Source: a virus
DNA: 64,000 nt
IMG/VR virus record: IMGVR_UViG_3300036715_003254
Coordinates: 1 to 64,000 of that record
Reading direction: 5' to 3' (one strand)
The notes under the pieces are model-generated. The model was not told where the DNA came from. It was given only the letters and a program-made list of their open reading frames with translations, and did not search any database. This document shows, piece after piece, positions 6,128 through 26,031 of this stretch (position 1 is the first letter of the stretch; the number at the start of each line of letters is the position of its first letter). The translations under genes and the position numbers were made by a program.

Positions 6128-7222
6128 TCAATCTCCTTTTAAGATATTTTGTAGATCTTTCTTAAAGGTTTTTGAACCTATGTCAAGTATATGGAAGTTG
6201 CTATAATTTTTATAGTAACCTGTTTTCCATTTTCTATCAATAAACTTCTTAGCATCTACTAGACAAATAGTTTTTAGTCCCATCAAAACACCAAGATGTA
6301 ATATTCCACTATCAGCGCATATCAAAGCAGACATATCTTTAAGAAGATCGTAAGTATCTTTCCAGTTTGTAATAGTAGGATTATTAACTCCTGCGTAATC
6401 CTTTCTAGGAACATTAAAGCAAGTCAATTCATATTTGCTCTTTAAGAACAGAATATTTTCAACATCTATGTCTCTATGTACTTCTACAGATCTTTCAGTA
6501 GTATTTAGTTGAAAGCCTATCTTATTATTTTTTGGAAATTTTAAATCTAGTTGATAAAAAGGAAACTCTCTTTTAACAACTAAGGAATAGTTAAACAAAT
6601 CCATTATAAGTGAAAAGTTTTCAACTTTGTTATTATGAAGATACCTGTTAATTTCAGTCGCATTTTTAGCTTGTTCATATTTAAATTGTGGAAACAAATA
6701 TTTCAATAATGAAATTATAGGCGCGTGTTGAGCTGGATGAAGTATTGTAATATTTTTATCTTTTATTATTTCAACATTTTGAAATGCCATAAAGATATCA
6801 CCAAAACCTTGTTCCAACACTATTACATATTCTTTTGTATTCGGAGCATCAACAAAACCAAATCTATTATATTTAGGCGAAGATATAAGTCTTATCACTT
6901 CTTCATTACCGTTTGACAATTTAATTTGATATCCTCTTAGTATATCGTACTCTGCTTGAAGGAATGGGTCATTTATTCTTGTTGATATCAAAAACTTAAA
7001 TCTGAAATATTCATCAAAGTCCGGACCAGAATATTCATTAATCATCTTCCAAGCAGAATCTAGCGAGCTTTGTTTTCCAGTCCTTTCGTAATCATAAAAA
7101 TAAGCTACTGCAGTTTCAAATCTAGCCAGTTCAAACTCAAGTAGTGCCTCGTCTAATGGTCTTATTACAACATTAGTTCTATGTCCTGGATCTATAAGTG
7201 TATGATGTAATTGTTGAGACAA
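6128..7222 (-). CDS. Glycosyltransferase family 9 (heptosyltransferase)-like protein
   Basis: The C-terminal half has the nucleotide-sugar binding signature of GT-B enzymes of the GT9/heptosyltransferase type: ALICADSGILHLGVLMGLKT, like the usual DSG-x2-H-x2-ALG. EQGFGDIFMA in the middle resembles the N-domain G-x-GD loop. At 364 residues the length fits. Such an enzyme moves a sugar from an activated donor; in a phage the target may be modified DNA bases or host surface sugars, which the sequence does not decide. An early-type promoter at 7259-7281 heads the gene. Confidence 0.7.
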   Translation of the reverse strand: MSQQLHHTLIDPGHRTNVVIRPLDEALLEFELARFETAVAYFYDYERTGKQSSLDSAWKMINEYSGPDFDEYFRFKFLISTRINDPFLQAEYDILRGYQIKLSNGNEEVIRLISSPKYNRFGFVDAPNTKEYVIVLEQGFGDIFMAFQNVEIIKDKNITILHPAQHAPIISLLKYLFPQFKYEQAKNATEINRYLHNNKVENFSLIMDLFNYSLVVKREFPFYQLDLKFPKNNKIGFQLNTTERSVEVHRDIDVENILFLKSKYELTCFNVPRKDYAGVNNPTITNWKDTYDLLKDMSALICADSGILHLGVLMGLKTICLVDAKKFIDRKWKTGYYKNYSNFHILDIGSKTFKKDLQNILKGD

Positions 7223-7258
7223 TAGTTATCCTTTTATATTTGGGCTCAAAATATTTTT

Positions 7259-13216: not shown

Positions 13217-13510
13217 TCAACCTTCTCCACCACCATAACCACCAGATCCGTTACCGTCTCCGTAACCATATCCAGCGCCATAACCATCTCCATTGCCATA
13301 ACCGTCTCCGATACCGTAACCAACACCATCGCCATCATTAAATATAGAACCTTGACCGTTTGCAGAACCGCAACCTAGTCCACAGCCGTATCCAGATCCG
13401 TTACCATCTCCAGATCCGTTACCATCTCCAAATCCAAACTGTGAACCAAATCCATCACCAGTACCATTACCGAATCCGGAACTTTTATTAATGTGTCTAT
13501 CTAACCACAT
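13217..13510 (-). CDS. Alternating-glycine dipeptide-repeat protein
   Basis: The 97 residues begin MWLDRHINKSSGFGNGTG and then alternate glycine with Asp, Asn, Ser, Tyr or Cys (GDGNGSGDGNGSG) to the end. The coding DNA is an imperfect hexanucleotide repeat, which can grow and shrink by slippage. No signal peptide is seen. It overlaps the 13497-13874 gene by 14 bp, and a paralogue lies on that gene's other side. Function unknown; Asp/Asn/Gly repeats can bind calcium, but these lack the spacing of RTX repeats. Confidence 0.6.
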   Translation of the reverse strand: MWLDRHINKSSGFGNGTGDGFGSQFGFGDGNGSGDGNGSGYGCGLGCGSANGQGSIFNDGDGVGYGIGDGYGNGDGYGAGYGYGDGNGSGGYGGGEG

Positions 13511-13877: not shown

Positions 13878-14207
13878 TTATCCTTTATTTAAAATTTCAT
13901 CTTGGTCTGAATCATCTTCCCAGTCTCCATTACCACAGCCAAAACCACTACCACAACCATAGTTACGACCATAACCAGAGCCGCCGCCACAGCCATAGTC
14001 GTTACCAGAACCAGAGCCACTACCAGATCCATCACCGTCTCCATCTCCATAACTAGTGCCTTCGCCCGAACCATAACCAAATCCATATCCATCACCATAT
14101 CCATCTCCCATTCCAGAACCACTACCTGAACCTGCACCATAACCGCTACCAGATCCGTCGCCGAATCCAAAACCGAAGTCTATACCTATATTTTCATCAA
14201 GTAGCAT
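13878..14207 (-). CDS. Alternating-glycine dipeptide-repeat protein, paralogue
   Basis: This 109-residue protein starts MLLDENIGIDFGFGFGDG and is G-X repeats for about 85 residues, ending in an acidic tail (DWEDDSDQDEI). It shares the M-x-LD start and the hexanucleotide structure with the 13217-13510 gene. It is 18 bases downstream of smpB. Confidence 0.6.
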   Translation of the reverse strand: MLLDENIGIDFGFGFGDGSGSGYGAGSGSGSGMGDGYGDGYGFGYGSGEGTSYGDGDGDGSGSGSGSGNDYGCGGGSGYGRNYGCGSGFGCGNGDWEDDSDQDEILNKG

Positions 14208-14225: not shown

Positions 14226-14636
14226 TTAATTGCCATCGCCTCTTCTTATTAAATCTCTTTCTTTTATTGTTTCTCTCTTTTCGTATTGTTTTTTACCTCT
14301 ACAAAATCCAACTTTTAGCCTAATAACTGTTTTTTCGTCTTGATATAACTCGAGAGGTATAATAGTAGTTCCCTTTTCAGAAAGAAATTTCATCATTTTC
14401 TCTCTTTCTTTCTTAGTACAGAGAACTGTCTTTAACCTTGTAGGATCGTCAACCTTTCCTATATGAAATTTCGTATAGACACCTTTAGAGTCAATCATAC
14501 AATATTCACCTTTTAAGTTCGCTCGGTGTTCTCTGATGGCCTTTACCTCTTGTCCAAAAAGTATCAAGGAACACTCAAGCTCCTTTTCGATTGTATAATC
14601 GAATTTCGCTTTTGTGTTCTTAGCGAATGATATCAT
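14226..14636 (-). CDS. smpB: SsrA-binding protein SmpB
   Basis: SmpB binds tmRNA and brings it to stalled ribosomes. The 136 residues match throughout: KNTKAKFDYTIEKELE, GQEVKAIREHRANLKGEYC, HIGKVDDP, TIIPLELY, KVGFCRGKKQYEKRE, and the basic tail ERDLIRRG. The tail, which enters the decoding site in known SmpB, is present. Phage copies are uncommon. The ATG overlaps the end of the YqeY-like gene by 4 bp. No tmRNA gene could be fitted in the window; the large gene-free stretch at 15600-16340 is the nearest candidate RNA. Confidence 0.9.
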   Translation of the reverse strand: MISFAKNTKAKFDYTIEKELECSLILFGQEVKAIREHRANLKGEYCMIDSKGVYTKFHIGKVDDPTRLKTVLCTKKEREKMMKFLSEKGTTIIPLELYQDEKTVIRLKVGFCRGKKQYEKRETIKERDLIRRGDGN

Positions 14637-15034
14637 ATACCTAACACCTGTTTAGATAGTTCTGATAGACTTTTAGGATTATACAGACCATCAAAATTTT
14701 GTTTAAAATGAGCGTTTATTTCTCCTAGCGATTTTGGAACAGCAGGAAGAGATTTTTCAGAAACTAGCTTTTTAATTCCATTTACTACTTCATCGTCATT
14801 CATTTGTTTTGGAAGATAAGATTCATAAAGCGCCCTTTCCGAGTCTTTCAAATATTCGTTCTTCAACAAGTTTCTAATTACTTGAACACATTCACCGTCA
14901 GTACTCTCCCTGTTACCTTTATTCTTTCCTGGAGCCATCACTTCTCCAAGAAGGAACGATAGATCTTCTTTTGTTGGTAAGTTGTTTTTTCTAGCTATAT
15001 ACAAGTCTCCATATATTTTTGCTTGAATACCCAT
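14633..15034 (-). CDS. GatB/YqeY domain protein
   Basis: The 133 residues follow the YqeY pattern: FLLGEVMAPG near the start, GECVQVIRNLLKN, ERALYESYLPKQMNDDEVV and the closing SLGEINAHF and LSELSKQVLG. The domain also forms the tail of the tRNA-dependent amidotransferase GatB, where it contacts tRNA; stand-alone YqeY has no settled role. It is coupled by a 4-bp overlap to smpB, suggesting a shared link to translation. Confidence 0.75.
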   Translation of the reverse strand: MGIQAKIYGDLYIARKNNLPTKEDLSFLLGEVMAPGKNKGNRESTDGECVQVIRNLLKNEYLKDSERALYESYLPKQMNDDEVVNGIKKLVSEKSLPAVPKSLGEINAHFKQNFDGLYNPKSLSELSKQVLGI

Positions 15035-15035
15035 A

Positions 15036-15233
15036 TTAAAATCCTTCCTCTACTTCTTTAATTTTAATATTTTGTATTTTTATTATTTTGTCCGGCTTTA
15101 TCGTCTCAAAAAGGTCAGTATTATTCCATTCCGCCAACGAATTGTTGATTTTGTTCACTACGCCTTGCTCTGTTTCTTCATCTACATAAAAGGTTTTTGT
15201 TACTAGACAAGTCATTACTACTCTTTTTCTCAT
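15036..15233 (-). CDS. Hypothetical protein, 65 aa
   Basis: It starts MRKRVVMTCLVTKTFYVDEE, one base from the upstream gene and two from the YqeY gene, so part of the smpB operon. No family recognised. Confidence 0.6.
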   Translation of the reverse strand: MRKRVVMTCLVTKTFYVDEETEQGVVNKINNSLAEWNNTDLFETIKPDKIIKIQNIKIKEVEEGF

Positions 15234-15517
15234 TAAAATCCTTTACAATAAGTTTCAGTTTTTATTTCACAGTTTCTACCATTAAATGGTACTATTATTT
15301 CTACACAGCCAAGTTCTAATAGTTTTTCAGCCAGAATTTTATTTTTTCTACCCGCAGCTCTATATTGAGCACCGTCATCAATATAATTATAGTAATAATC
15401 GATTTGGTTAGCAAGTTCAATAGCTTTAGCTATATTTTCTTCTGAAACGCCTTCTTCGAAAATAATTTTAGAAGTTTGGAAAGTTTTGATATCGTTTTCG
15501 ATAGTTTTCATTTTCAA
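15233..15517 (-). CDS. Hypothetical protein, 94 aa
   Basis: It starts MKMKTIENDIKTFQTSKI, soluble, alpha/beta. It is the first gene of the operon that runs through YqeY and smpB to the glycine-repeat genes, driven by the promoter at 15540-15573. No family recognised. Confidence 0.6.
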   Translation of the reverse strand: MKMKTIENDIKTFQTSKIIFEEGVSEENIAKAIELANQIDYYYNYIDDGAQYRAAGRKNKILAEKLLELGCVEIIVPFNGRNCEIKTETYCKGF

Positions 15518-15539
15518 GCCTTTTTACTTAATTTGAGAA

Positions 15540-15573
15540 ATTATAACTAAAAATTTCTTAAACTAATCTTAAA
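15540..15573 (-). promoter_or_regulatory. Early-type promoter with two upstream elements
   Basis: -10 TATAAT at 15540-15545; TTTAAG at 15557-15562 and 15568-15573. It heads the smpB operon. Confidence 0.7.
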
Positions 15574-16066
15574 TTTCAGCAAAATTAAAAATTAAGGTTA
15601 ATTTAAGAAATGGTGGACGATACGGCATCGAAGCCGTGTTATCCTGATATCTTCGTTAAGAAATAGTTAAAACAAAATCGCACTTGAAACGATTTTGAGT
15701 TCAAATAGGAGTTTTACAATGTTTTTAGAGAAAAGTGAAAAGAAAGGAAAAGAAAAAATTCAACTTCGTAGCAAAAGGAGTTGTTTCTTGTTAAGCTGCC
15801 AACTCCGCTGCAGGTTTAAAGTTTGTATTGTTTGCACTTATTTGTTTTCAAGTGTATTTCTTACCTACACAATAACAGGATCTTACCCTTAACCGCCCGT
15901 GTTTAAATGGAAGCTGGTTTCATTGTTTAAGCAATGTTCCCAGCTGAGACAACAACTATACGCACACCCTTAAAACTATGCGATCCTTTGCTGCCGAAGG
16001 ATTTCTCGAGACATTGAAGTAGAGGTGCACTTACTTCTGAATACTCAATGAGAAATTATTCGAATG

Positions 16067-16108
16067 ACTTTCTTCGATGGCTATTCTCGAATAGCCATCG
16101 AAGAAAGT
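16067..16108. repeat. 20-bp perfect inverted repeat
   Basis: Arms 16067-16086 and 16089-16108 with only two bases between. It is the most stable hairpin in the folded stretch. Confidence 0.85.
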
Positions 16109-16130
16109 TATTAAGTGCTTCATTAAACAA

Positions 16131-16305
16131 TCAACGGGTAGTTACTCCCGTGTATCCATCTAGCCTCTTCCTATCATTGAAAGAGGTTACTGATAACTAA
16201 ATGGACTTTTTATTAAGCACACAGTCAGCGGCGCTATTTGACGCCGCATATCCGTCTAGCCTCTTTCGACAAAAGAGGTTACTGGCAACTAGATGGACTT
16301 ATTTC
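16131..16305. repeat. Two tandem hairpin modules with conserved core
   Basis: Modules 16131-16208 and 16227-16305 share the order: GC-rich hairpin (CGGG/CCCG, or GCGGCG/CGCCGC), TATCC, TCTAG, the CCTCTT/AAGAGG stem, TTACTG and AACTA, ATGGACTT. The first hairpins differ in sequence but keep pairing, and the outer stem (CCATCTAG or CCGTCTAG with CTAAATGG or CTAGATGG) changes while mostly pairing. GTGCTT at 16114-16119 can pair with AAGCAC around the first module. Confidence 0.7.
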
Positions 16306-16347
16306 TAAAGCCTAGCACAAAGGTGTATTATTCGGCTTTAGATCGTT

Positions 16348-20442: not shown

Positions 20443-21903
20443 TCACGAGAAAAGTTCTTTCATTTTTTCTTTAGCCTCGTCCCAACTTCCAGTCATAGTA
20501 CCAAAAGAATATTCTGAGACAGTACTTTCAAAGAAATTAGTGTAAGTAGTCAGACTCAACTGATTTTCCATCCAAGGAAGAGGATTTTCTTTGATACCGT
20601 AGTTCGGTTTGAGTCCGAATTGTTTTAATCTTTGATCAGCAATATATCTTACATAAAGTTTCATTTCATCTTTAGTAAGATTATTCAAGTCTCCTAGTTT
20701 GAATACATAATCAATATAATCTTCTTCTTTAGCTACAATCTGTCTGGCAGCTTCGTAAATATCTCTTTTAAAATCATCATTCCAGATTTGTCTATTCTCT
20801 TTTATTATAGTTTTGAATAACCAAGCGTTGCCGTCGATGTGACAGTTTCCAGTAACAGAAACTTTGCCATTACTTCTAATAACAAAAGCTTTTCCTGGAA
20901 CAGTTGGACAATAGAAATTTTTTTTATCTGTATTTTCAAGCTTTGTTTTTTCTATTTTACTACTACCGCCTTTTATAAATTCATCACCTTCCACAAATTC
21001 ATATTTTTCTGCTATTTCTTCTTGTGCTTTTCCATCTCTTTTAAATACCATTCTATGACCAGGAGTAACTATTTGTTCGACATCATCTGACTCAAATTTA
21101 TAATAGTAATCTGGACAAGATTTAGTAAAGTGTGTTGGTTCTACAAAAGAATATTCTTCTGTTTCCATATCGAATTGGAGTATTTTTTCTCCTGGCTGAA
21201 GATCTTCTATCTTTTTCCAAGAACCATCTTCTAATTGAACTTCCGTACCTTCTATTATACAATTTTCATCAAGGATACTCCACGACAAAACCTTGTTCAT
21301 ACCAGGAAATTTACCATCTCTAGAGAAAGAAGCTAGTATAGCAAACTGAGCAAATAAAGATATACCTTCTACTAAACCAGAATAAACAGCTATCATTCTA
21401 GCAACATCTTTTCTGAATTCTATATCAGCTTTTTCTATACCATATTCAGAAACATAGTAATGGAATTGTCTAACTCTTGCTTTATGTATATAATCATATT
21501 TTAGAGAAAGACTAGGAATATACTCGTATTCTTTATAGAACTCTTCTGGAAAGCCTAGAGTATCAAGAAGCAAACTATAAGCGTCTTGATGTAGAGATTC
21601 TCTGTTTCCGAAGCTTCTCAACATCATTTTAACTTCATTGGGTTTAAATGCTCTAATAAGAATATCATATCCCATACCTACTTCTGTGTCATTTTGAACA
21701 AAACCTTGAAATATACTTGTTATTATGTGCTTTTCTTCTATAGAAATAGTAGTCCAGTCTTTCATATCGCCTGAAAGGTCTATCTCTTCGGTAGTCCAGT
21801 GAAGGGCTACCTCGTGAGTTTTATATCTATCATAAGCGCTTGGATAATGAAATGGTTTATATGATTTTGAATCAGTATGAAATAAATTATATTTTTTTGA
21901 CAT
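20443..21903 (-). CDS. nrdB: Ribonucleotide reductase small subunit with in-frame mini-intein
   Basis: NrdB carries the metal/radical cofactor of class I ribonucleotide reductase. The host protein is residues 1-214 plus 354-486 (347 residues, normal length): FGNRESLHQDAYS and VEGISLFAQFAIL are metal-ligand helices. Between them, exactly within LDEN/CHIDGNAW, lies a 139-residue intein (215-353). Splicing would restore DENCHID, where E and H are expected iron ligands, so the enzyme cannot work unspliced. It follows nrdA by 15 bases. Confidence 0.9.
   Translation of the reverse strand: MSKKYNLFHTDSKSYKPFHYPSAYDRYKTHEVALHWTTEEIDLSGDMKDWTTISIEEKHIITSIFQGFVQNDTEVGMGYDILIRAFKPNEVKMMLRSFGNRESLHQDAYSLLLDTLGFPEEFYKEYEYIPSLSLKYDYIHKARVRQFHYYVSEYGIEKADIEFRKDVARMIAVYSGLVEGISLFAQFAILASFSRDGKFPGMNKVLSWSILDENCIIEGTEVQLEDGSWKKIEDLQPGEKILQFDMETEEYSFVEPTHFTKSCPDYYYKFESDDVEQIVTPGHRMVFKRDGKAQEEIAEKYEFVEGDEFIKGGSSKIEKTKLENTDKKNFYCPTVPGKAFVIRSNGKVSVTGNCHIDGNAWLFKTIIKENRQIWNDDFKRDIYEAARQIVAKEEDYIDYVFKLGDLNNLTKDEMKLYVRYIADQRLKQFGLKPNYGIKENPLPWMENQLSLTTYTNFFESTVSEYSFGTMTGSWDEAKEKMKELFS
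20845..21261 (-). other. NrdB mini-intein (139 aa, no endonuclease)
   Basis: It starts with Cys in CIIEGTEVQLEDGSW, has block B TPGHRMVF (T and H for splicing), and ends VSVTGN before Cys+1. There is no homing endonuclease domain. The usual penultimate His is Gly, a known but less common state. Confidence 0.9.
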
Positions 21904-21918
21904 TTTACACCATCCTTT

Positions 21919-22995
21919 TTATTGACAAGACAAACAAGTTTCATATTTGTCCATTTCTTGAATTATTTCTCTTTCGTAATTTGAGCTAGCTTTAGTAGCA
22001 GATTGACTTCTACAGTAGTAAAGACCTTTTAATCCAGCTTTCCAAGCTTGTAAATGTACATAAGCAAGATAACTTCTATCAACATCGTGATTAAAGAATA
22101 GATTTACGGATTGACCTTGGTCAATTTTTTCTTGTCTTACTTTAGCGTGAGAAATAATCCATCTTTGGTCTATTTCGTAAGCTGTTTTGAATACAAGTTT
22201 AGCGTCGTCACTCATCCACTCAAGACCTTGAACAGAACCTCTGTCTTTGATTATTCTTTTCCACTGTTTTTCAATCCACTTATCATCTTCGCCATTCTCT
22301 TCAGCATATTTCTTGATATACTTTTCAAGATTGACATTTCTTATTTCGTGTTTTCCTGTTTTATTTTCGTGAATATAAGCGTTAGCTATAATAGGATCTA
22401 TTCCAGGAGACACATTGTCACAAAGAATAGAAATACTTCCAGTAGGAGCAATAGCCATCTTACAGACGAATCTATCAGTTCCATCTCCATATTCGATAGA
22501 CATAGGACAAGCGCCTTTTTCTTTAGCTATTTCTTTTGACGCTCTATCAGTAGCATCTTTCAAGAAAGTACAAACCTTTCTTTGGAAACCTTCAGCAAGA
22601 GCTGACTCGAAAGGTATCATTTTAGATTGGAGATATGTGTGAAGACCCATTTGACCTAGACCAACAGATCTTTCATATAGAGCGGATTTAAGAGAGTTTT
22701 GGAAACCTCTCGGTTCACCGAATTTTCCAGATTTAGCTTTTCTTTCAAAATCGTCAATTACATTATCAAGAAGTCTCATAATATCTTCTATAAATTGGTA
22801 GTTGTCTTTCCACTCATCGTATTTTGCTAGGTTGACTGAAGCCAAACAACATACAGCAGTGTAATCTTCTGCTACTCTCAACATTATTTCATTGCAGTTT
22901 GAAACTAGTATTTCATTAGCGAAAAAATTGTGGTTATCCTCCACAGTTATATCATAAACAGGAATTTCTTCCTCTAAAAATTCTATTTTGAGCAT
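21919..22995 (-). CDS. nrdA: NrdA C-terminal half led by split-intein C-fragment
   Basis: Residues 1-33 are the C-part of a split intein (VYDITVEDNHNFFANEILVS, then N), followed by Cys34, the first residue of the NrdA C-half (CNEIMLRVAED). The rest is the catalytic barrel of the large subunit: the second active-site Cys (AVCCLASVNLAKY), SALYERSVGLGQMGLH, AIAPTGSIS, and a redox tail ending CLSCQ. Joined to the partner, the mature protein has about 585 residues, lacking the ATP-cone regulatory domain of longer NrdA. It has its own GGGAAG ribosome site, 15 bases after the partner's stop. Confidence 0.92.
   Translation of the reverse strand: MLKIEFLEEEIPVYDITVEDNHNFFANEILVSNCNEIMLRVAEDYTAVCCLASVNLAKYDEWKDNYQFIEDIMRLLDNVIDDFERKAKSGKFGEPRGFQNSLKSALYERSVGLGQMGLHTYLQSKMIPFESALAEGFQRKVCTFLKDATDRASKEIAKEKGACPMSIEYGDGTDRFVCKMAIAPTGSISILCDNVSPGIDPIIANAYIHENKTGKHEIRNVNLEKYIKKYAEENGEDDKWIEKQWKRIIKDRGSVQGLEWMSDDAKLVFKTAYEIDQRWIISHAKVRQEKIDQGQSVNLFFNHDVDRSYLAYVHLQAWKAGLKGLYYCRSQSATKASSNYEREIIQEMDKYETCLSCQ
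22897..22995 (-). other. Split intein C-fragment (33 aa)
   Basis: Blocks F and G (VYDITVEDNHNFFANEIL, VSN/C). It ends Ser-Asn rather than His-Asn. It begins with its own ATG, as in known naturally split inteins of phage origin. Confidence 0.9.
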
Positions 22996-23010
22996 ATATT
23001 TCTTCCCTTA

Positions 23011-24078
23011 TTAAGATATTTTAAGAACATCAGTTTCATTCAAATCTTTGGCCATAACATAACCTCTGTTTTCTGTCCAAATTTTATGGTCAGGAGTACA
23101 AACGATTTGTTTGCCAGATTCAGTATCTGTTATTCTCATTACTTTAGCTTTAGGCGAAGTCATAGCAAAATCAGTAACTTCTTTGAATGAAATTTCTTTT
23201 GTTTCAGTATTCATAGACTTTACTTTATCGCCTATTTTTATATCTTTTAGTTTTTTATAGCCTTCTTCTGTTTCTAATATAGAATCGCCAGATAAGCATA
23301 ACTGTGAAGTTGTTATTTTCCATCCAGCTTTCACATACAATTCATTCAAATTCTTATTAGCGTTTTCCGAAAAGAATAGATAAGGTTCGCCGTGTTGATG
23401 TCTCTTAGTAAGAATTTTTGTAAATATGTCAAAAGCATCTAGAGTTTTTACTACACTTCCGTCTTTTCTAGAGTATAGGTTATATGACTCGCCGTTTATG
23501 ACAGCATTTAAAAACTCATCAGTAAGTTTTACTGCGTGATGTAGTTTAGGCATCCTTCTTTCTATAGAAGCACCTTTTGTAGTTCTCATTTCTATAAATT
23601 CTTCTATTTCAGGATGATGTACATCTAGATAAATTGCTTGAGAGGCTCTTCTCAAACCTCCTTGAGAAATACCTTGAGCAATAGACTCGCTTATTTTTAG
23701 GAAAGGCATTATACCTGATGTTTTACCGTTCTTAGTTTTAGCGCCTACCTCTCTTACTTCTGAGAAGTCATTTCCTATACCACCTCCAGCAGCACCAAGA
23801 ACCATAGCCTCATAATATTTGTTAAAGATATCATTAAGAGAATCTGAAGTTTGCTGTACGAAACAAGAAATAGGTAAACCTCTTTCATTTCCTAGATTCG
23901 CTGTTATTGGTGTTGATGTTCTAAACCAATTTCGCTCAAAATAGCTATAAAGTCTTTTTTCGTGTTCGGGATTGTCGGCTCCAGCGCGACAAACTCTTTT
24001 GTAAACGTCTTCGGGTTTTTCTCCTGCTGCAGGATTCACATACGACTCTTGAAGCATAATTCTTTCAAATTCGTTCAT
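23011..24078 (-). CDS. nrdA: NrdA N-terminal half ending in split-intein N-fragment
   Basis: Residues 1-260 are the N-half of the class I large subunit, with the redox Cys in GLPISCFVQ, GGGIGNDFSEVREVG and ASQAIYLDVHHPEIEEFIE. They end at TTSQL. Residues 261-355 are the intein N-part. The junction places the intein directly before the cysteine that becomes the thiyl radical in this family (SNLC in E. coli; here SQLC, with Gln for the usual Asn). An intrinsic-terminator-like hairpin at 24104-24135 separates it from clpP upstream. Confidence 0.92.
   Translation of the reverse strand: MNEFERIMLQESYVNPAAGEKPEDVYKRVCRAGADNPEHEKRLYSYFERNWFRTSTPITANLGNERGLPISCFVQQTSDSLNDIFNKYYEAMVLGAAGGGIGNDFSEVREVGAKTKNGKTSGIMPFLKISESIAQGISQGGLRRASQAIYLDVHHPEIEEFIEMRTTKGASIERRMPKLHHAVKLTDEFLNAVINGESYNLYSRKDGSVVKTLDAFDIFTKILTKRHQHGEPYLFFSENANKNLNELYVKAGWKITTSQLCLSGDSILETEEGYKKLKDIKIGDKVKSMNTETKEISFKEVTDFAMTSPKAKVMRITDTESGKQIVCTPDHKIWTENRGYVMAKDLNETDVLKIS
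23014..23298 (-). other. Split intein N-fragment (95 aa)
   Basis: It starts CLSGDSILETEEGYKK (block A), has block B CTPDHKIWTENRGYV, and ends DLNETDVLKIS before the stop. The break is at the place where split inteins of the NrdJ, gp41 and NrdA groups are broken. Confidence 0.9.
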
Positions 24079-24165: not shown

Positions 24166-24753
24166 TCAGTTCGTCGGTTTCTCTTTAATGTGATCAATAG
24201 CTCCAAATTCTAAAGCTTCTTTTGGAGACATCCAACAGTCTCTTTCTAATTTGTCATAAATTACTTCTTTTTTTTGTCCTGTATTTTCACTTAGAATTTC
24301 ATACAGTCTTTCTTTAAGGAACATAACTTCTTTGTAGTGAATTCCTATATCAGTTACCTGTCCTTGTACTCCCGATAAAGGTTGATGGAAGAGTATACGA
24401 GAATTAGGTAAAGTGTATCTTTGACCTTTAGTACCGCAAGAAAGAATGAAAGCTCCCATTGAAGCTGCTTGACCAATACAAACAGTTCTAACAGGAGAAG
24501 AAATAGTTCTCATAATATCAACTAGAGAAAAGCCGTCTGTAATTACTCCTCCTGGAGAGTTTATAAGCATAGTTATTTGCTCGTCCGAAACAGAATCAAG
24601 ATAAAGCAGCTGAGATATCACTGAAGTAACAAGTTCTTCTTCTATTTCTCCTACAAGAAATACTGTTCTATTTTTATTAAATAGTCGGCTATAACAGTCA
24701 TACTGTTTTTCGCCTCTAGTATTTGATTCAATTGCTATTGGATTTACTATCAT
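24166..24753 (-). CDS. clpP: ClpP-type serine protease subunit
   Basis: The 195 residues match ClpP over the full length. The catalytic triad is Ser98 (GQAASMGAF), His123 (ILFHQPL) and Asp172 (ERDCWMS); MLINSPGG and ALEFGAIDHI are also typical. ClpP forms a 14-mer that degrades unfolded proteins fed by an AAA partner. The AAA protein at 36730-37959 lacks the ClpP-binding IGF loop as far as I can see, so a host ClpA/ClpX may serve. It is located with nucleotide-metabolism genes, not with the prohead protease gp21. Confidence 0.92.
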   Translation of the reverse strand: MIVNPIAIESNTRGEKQYDCYSRLFNKNRTVFLVGEIEEELVTSVISQLLYLDSVSDEQITMLINSPGGVITDGFSLVDIMRTISSPVRTVCIGQAASMGAFILSCGTKGQRYTLPNSRILFHQPLSGVQGQVTDIGIHYKEVMFLKERLYEILSENTGQKKEVIYDKLERDCWMSPKEALEFGAIDHIKEKPTN

Positions 24754-25332: not shown

Positions 25333-25632
25333 TTAATTGTGTCTCAAAAAGACTTTATGTAACTTAAATTGTATAAATCTTTCTTGGGTTTTTACATAGT
25401 TTTTACCACAAATAGAATAAGACAAGCAATATGCTTTTTCAAATATTACTCTATCACCTTCTTTGATATTTTTTACTTTTTTACCAACAGCAATTACAGT
25501 ACCTTTAGCTTGTCTTTCTGAATCAATTCTTTCACCTTCTTCATCAGAAGTATCAAGTTCATCAGAATCAAGCTCTATTACTATATCTCTTTTGTTTAAC
25601 CATAAAAGAATTGATTGTGTTTCTTCTGACAT
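25333..25632 (-). CDS. GroES-like co-chaperonin (gp31-like), first paralogue
   Basis: The 99 residues show the cpn10 beta-barrel pattern: DIVIELDSDELD, AKGTVIAVGKKVKNIKEGDR, VIFEKAYCLSY. The mobile loop that binds GroEL would lie around residues 25-37 and is acidic here (TSDEEGERID). T4 gp31 replaces GroES to fold the capsid protein. A second copy is directly upstream at 25744-26031; this one has diverged more at the C-terminus. Confidence 0.7.
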   Translation of the reverse strand: MSEETQSILLWLNKRDIVIELDSDELDTSDEEGERIDSERQAKGTVIAVGKKVKNIKEGDRVIFEKAYCLSYSICGKNYVKTQERFIQFKLHKVFLRHN

Positions 25633-25743: not shown

Positions 25744-26031
25744 TTAATCCATTTTGAGTTGAATATGTTTCTCCAGAATCTGTGTATACTTCTTATCACC
25801 AACAGTGTAATCGATACCGAACTCTTTTCCAAAAACTACTTTATCACCGACTTCGACCTCTTTTACTTTACTACCAACAACAACTACAGTACCTTGAGTT
25901 TGTCTATCTAAAACAGATCTATTTCCTACTCCAGTAATAATACCAGACTCAGTTATTTGTTCGTACGGATCAAGTTCTATTACTACATCTTTTTTATTAA
26001 CCCATCTAGGAACTGAAGGAAATTCAAACAT
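25744..26031 (-). CDS. GroES-like co-chaperonin (gp31-like), second paralogue
   Basis: The 95 residues read as cpn10: DVVIELDPYEQITESGIITG with the mobile loop, QGTVVVVGSKVKEVEVGDKV, VFGKEFGI and a TQILEKHIQLKMD end. The loop ESGIITGVGN is close to the GroES G-G-I-x-L type. It is therefore the more likely functional gp31 equivalent. It is 12 bases after the nuclease gene. Confidence 0.8.
   Translation of the reverse strand: MFEFPSVPRWVNKKDVVIELDPYEQITESGIITGVGNRSVLDRQTQGTVVVVGSKVKEVEVGDKVVFGKEFGIDYTVGDKKYTQILEKHIQLKMD

Follow-up and report, generated by a model that had tools for sequence, protein, structure and literature searches.

The minus strand of the phage DNA analysed here, a window of 64,000 nucleotides, very probably encodes a one-piece tmRNA (ssrA) of 288 nt at positions 15898–15611, whose partner would be the phage's own SmpB and which is proposed to work by trans-translation. 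A descriptor asking for a CCA end, a T-arm, a 7-bp acceptor stem and a tag frame was run on both strands of the 64 kb and gave exactly one match, which was this gene. Sixty first-order shuffles yielded no tag-bearing match and a mean of 0.017 acceptor/T-arm matches; because the descriptor was designed after the locus had been seen, this rate serves as orientation rather than as a formal P value. Applied to bacterial tmRNAs of the Campylobacterota type, the descriptor recovered 52 out of 63.

The Rfam model RF00023 aligned to the gene over its full length with 13.5 bits (E = 1.4e-4 for the whole 138-kb record), which is below the gathering threshold of 47 bits. Since tRNA-sized stretches of other phages outscore 13.5 bits, this match proves little when taken alone. 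It was the only tmRNA match in the record, which is possibly incomplete. Using a Campylobacterota tmRNA profile, nhmmer gave a weak match (E = 1.1) that was best at the resume site and in register with the tag frame. ARAGORN, which the initial annotation had suggested as a check, called no tmRNA in the window or in related loci, and no Rfam family reached its gathering threshold in the window. At another locus (L149, positions 6877–7230), a tmRNA adjoining an SmpB gene scores 167.9 bits with Rfam yet is also uncalled by ARAGORN, providing a second example of such genes being missed when ARAGORN is used alone. The alternative of a permuted tmRNA (RF04321, 15927–15791, 21.5 bits) was dismissed, as all parts are accounted for by the one-piece order, and a plus-strand open reading frame crossing the gene (15695–15892) was taken as a chance occurrence.

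As far as can be read from the sequence, the tRNA-like domain has the acceptor end expected of a tmRNA. The 5′ strand GGGCGGU (15892–15898) forms 7 out of 7 pairs with AUCGUCC (15621–15615), and this 3′ strand is followed by the ACCA end at 15611 (together 15611–15621), giving a 7-bp P1 with A73-CCA. The third pair is G3-U70, although the descriptor did not require it. A G-U at the third position of the acceptor stem is the alanine identity pair of tRNA-Ala and tmRNA. The T-arm, ACGGC-UUCGAU-GCCGU (15622–15637), carries the UUCRA motif in a loop of 6 nt instead of 7. The initial annotation had recognized this minus-strand T-arm and the CCACCA end, both of which hold, but wrongly stated that neither a 5′ acceptor strand nor a tag frame could be found; the former is present at 15898–15892 and the latter at 15835–15791. 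The D-loop AAGGGUAAG (15882–15890) retains the GG but lacks the UUCGAC of the GGnUUCGAC found at the 5′ ends of bacterial tmRNAs. This counts against a canonical form, and the phage tmRNA is therefore filed as a divergent variant. The atypical D-loop and the 6-nt T-loop could impair alanine charging or the binding by SmpB.

The helix P2, which joins both domains of a tmRNA, is given by pairing of AUCCUG (15876–15881) with CAGGAU (15646–15641). A continuation of P2 is proposed for UAAGAAAUA (15855–15863) and UAUUUCUUA (15665–15657), a perfect 9-bp complement. The tag stop codon lies in the loop of a P5-like helix (GGAGUUG/CAACUCC, 15777–15806, a perfect 7-bp complement), as it does in P5 of bacterial tmRNAs. 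The part behind the tag is mainly a pyrimidine-rich stretch with one hairpin, CAAAAUCG/CGAUUUUG (15673–15697), read from the pairing of the sequence. Its loop UUUCAAGUG and the segment CACUUGAAA (15854–15846), just 5′ of the resume site, are complementary over 9 nt and may form a long-range pseudoknot. At least two such 9-bp complements occurred in 14% of shuffles (P = 0.14), so that the P2 continuation and the pseudoknot pairing are proposals that are not significant on their own. The pseudoknot region appears reduced, with one possible long-range pseudoknot and no sign of the four (PK1–PK4). Two other contigs carry identical copies of the tmRNA stretch, and these give no covariation. Directly after the CCA end, an AT-rich near-perfect inverted repeat (15548–15611) is followed by a run of T on the minus strand; it is a likely terminator.

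The tag frame comprises 14 codons, ANNTNFKPAAELAA, starting with GCA at 15835 and ending with the UAA stop at 15791. It was assigned from the open frame and the register of the nhmmer match, and the context of the resume codon, AAACAAAUAAGU-GCA, is conserved. We scanned approximately 85,000 GTDB species genomes for the tag-start pattern ANN[T/A]N..PA. It was found at 69 places, nearly all labelled Campylobacterota and one in a MAG labelled Desulfosporosinus; as the pattern itself demanded these residues, agreement in the first half of the tag is built in, and the informative part is the near-exclusive carriage by Campylobacterota. The Campylobacterota tags matched by the scan have 14 amino acids of the form ANN[T/A]N[Y/F]xPA..., for example ANNTNYAPAYAKVA. 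The phage tag is equally long, but its last residues are AELAA, compared with YAK[V/A]A in the host-type tags. The Helicobacter pylori tag is noted for carrying lysine near its end where leucine or valine is otherwise found (PMC2862035); the phage tag thus resembles in its end the LAA that is common among bacteria. The T4-like helicase of the phage is closest to those of Campylobacter phages. Together, the start of the tag and the helicase suggest that this T4-like phage probably infects a Campylobacter-like host of the Campylobacterota.

The one-piece tmRNA of Campylobacterota (RF00023) shares with the phage gene the GGG start, G3-U70, the ACCA end, the T-arm, P2, the GCA resume codon and a 14-amino-acid tag beginning ANN[T/A]N[Y/F]-PA. 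It is longer (approximately 357–398 nt versus 288 nt), and the phage form differs from it by the D-loop without UUCGAC, the T-loop of 6 nt, fewer pseudoknots and the AELAA end of the tag.

Approximately 1 kb downstream of the tmRNA and on the same strand, a single-copy gene of the record (14226–14636) encodes an SmpB of 136 amino acids. This SmpB, noted in the initial annotation, is confirmed by its matches to PF01668 (E = 1.5e-31) and to SmpB relatives in the PDB (E = 1.9e-20). The C-terminal region contains GKKQYEKR, a motif of the GKKxxDKR type, and the protein has a short loop deletion and a short tail. It is 31% identical to the SmpB of a Halarcobacter genome, the one host SmpB compared, and at most 42% identical to those of other viral contigs. 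The coupled YqeY-like gene (14633–15034, minus strand) was likewise correctly described: it overlaps the smpB start by 4 bases and matches phrog_1460 ‘tRNA amidotransferase’ (E = 3e-14), with a PF09424 (YqeY) score of 25.5 bits, just under the 27-bit cut-off. Linkage of the two genes is not general, a YqeY-like open reading frame being found nearby in 5 of 83 SmpB loci. On the other side of smpB, two minus-strand genes (13217–13510 and 13878–14207) encode glycine-rich low-complexity proteins with GSGYGDG repeats, and a DUF6948 gene lies between them.

The phage also encodes a ClpP protease of 195 amino acids (24166–24753, minus strand), approximately 8 kb from the tmRNA. The Clp protease domain was identified with high significance (PF00574, E = 2.4e-64, 217 bits; PDB ClpP relatives, E = 5e-57) and has an apparent catalytic S-H-D. 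That this ClpP is tied to the tag by function is a guess. Searches for ClpX and for tRNAs gave no match in the record. Several other minus-strand genes lie in this part of the window. The large subunit of ribonucleotide reductase is encoded in two open reading frames (21919–24078), the first ending in the N-part of an intein and the second starting with a C-part, so that the pair looks like a naturally split intein. The small-subunit gene (20443–21903) contains an in-frame small intein (Hint module), and two adjacent genes (25333–25632 and 25744–26031) encode GroES-like co-chaperonins (Cpn10).

To place this gene set, we considered 31 SmpB-bearing viral records, namely 26 from IMG/VR, four reference huge phages and the present phage. 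A ClpP match with E = 1e-10 or better was found in 19 of the 31; a tmRNA above the cut-off was found in 9 of the 26 IMG/VR records and 2 of the four huge phages. As the counts cover SmpB-bearing records only, no enrichment is claimed. SmpB, tmRNA and ClpP occur together in eight records (G007, G015, G021, G023, G027, G028, LR756504 and Lak-B5), although bacterial contigs may be among those from IMG/VR, G023 being suspect. Huge phages with tmRNA and SmpB, Lak phages among them, have been described (Al-Shayeb et al., 2020; PMC7162821), and the presence of SmpB and tmRNA in one phage record, often with ClpP, is thus already known from other large phages. Compared with these, the present phage is smaller and T4-like (138-kb record, possibly incomplete), its two genes are approximately 1 kb apart, its tag is of the Campylobacterota type and its RNA is missed by ARAGORN. 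tmRNAs are present in approximately 2% of phage genomes (PMC9004378). Phage-encoded ssrA is also reported for mycobacteriophages Bxz1 and Wildcat, Bacillus phage G and methylophage Melnitz (PMC4131195, PMC9004378), and the passages of these papers that deal with the four tmRNAs mention no phage SmpB partner. The Melnitz tmRNA is described there as two-piece and accompanied by a riboswitch, whereas the present one is one-piece.

Upstream of the tmRNA, at about 15899–16345, lies a stably folding non-coding region. As a folding signal, the large folded region of the initial annotation is real, with z-scores against shuffles of −7.4 on the minus and −9.1 on the plus strand. Taken as 15893–16345, it folds much more stably than shuffled sequence on both strands. 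A 24-bp near-perfect inverted repeat (16063–16112) makes up part of this signal; without it, 16113–16345 still reaches a z-score of about −5. The region contains two diverged repeat domains (16148–16216 and 16244–16308) in which the stems persist and the loops differ. No Rfam family reaches threshold for it. A pattern scan returned only the present phage and, within a long open stretch of another phage, two chance matches. All blastn matches to phages were short, with E = 0.8 or worse, and the matches in 298 Campylobacterota genomes were both short and weak. Among viral contigs, no relative was found beyond near-identical copies. The region could be a leader of the tmRNA, a separate RNA or a DNA element. 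Its strong folding and its two repeated domains might also suggest an RNA that is itself the partner of SmpB. We consider this extremely improbable, as neither a tag nor a tRNA-like end was detected there, the strand is not fixed and a recognizable SmpB partner, the tmRNA, adjoins. The earlier proposal that SmpB serves an unusual phage RNA is supported, but this RNA would be the divergent tmRNA on the same strand and not the larger folded region.

Two further explanations accept the gene at 15898–15611 and deny it a role in tagging. The atypical D-loop and T-loop might indicate a decoy, whose tRNA-like end binds SmpB and dampens the host tmRNA while the tag is a relic, and a molecule of this type has a precedent in mycobacteriophage DS6A, where an RNA consisting of the tRNA-like part only is reported as a tmRNA inhibitor (PMC4131195, PMC11915505). 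However, the intact 14-codon tag, the conserved resume context, the stop codon, G3-U70 and the phage's own SmpB and ClpP fit an active tmRNA better, and a decoy therefore seems unlikely. The phage SmpB might instead serve the host tmRNA only, the phage RNA being a decaying copy of a host gene. The low score and divergence of the RNA would agree with this, as would the 17 of 26 SmpB-bearing IMG/VR phage contigs without a tmRNA above the cut-off. But heavy divergence from the host sequence has left both the tag frame and the long-range pairing of the tRNA-like domain intact, which is not a pattern of decay. Support of the host tmRNA alone, which the initial annotation had considered, is now the less likely reading, and decay of a host copy appears very improbable.

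For the one-piece phage tmRNA that we favour, the following mechanism is proposed. Once expressed, the RNA would receive alanine on its tRNA-like domain, as expected from G3-U70 and A73. The phage SmpB would carry the charged tmRNA into ribosomes stalled on broken mRNA. Translation would then resume at GCA, the tag would be added to the unfinished protein and the ribosome would be freed. The LAA end of the tag would direct the protein to Clp proteolysis, for which the phage may contribute ClpP. The unfoldase would come from the host, as the record gave no match to ClpX.

With a tmRNA, an SmpB and a ClpP of its own, the phage appears to supply a large part of the ribosome-rescue pathway itself. 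Somewhat speculatively, these components might establish a partly separate route of trans-translation, in which the phage tmRNA and SmpB act together, the tag end is switched from AK[V/A]A to ELAA and the phage ClpP helps to degrade the tagged proteins, so that the phage would set the terms on which proteins are recycled in the infected cell. The phage offers a testable case, combining tmRNA, SmpB and ClpP with a tag end unlike that of its presumed hosts. Our data indicate that phage tmRNAs can diverge beyond the reach of ARAGORN and the Rfam thresholds. Since such diverged tmRNAs are missed by the callers, a phage SmpB gene for which no tmRNA is called need not be an orphan.
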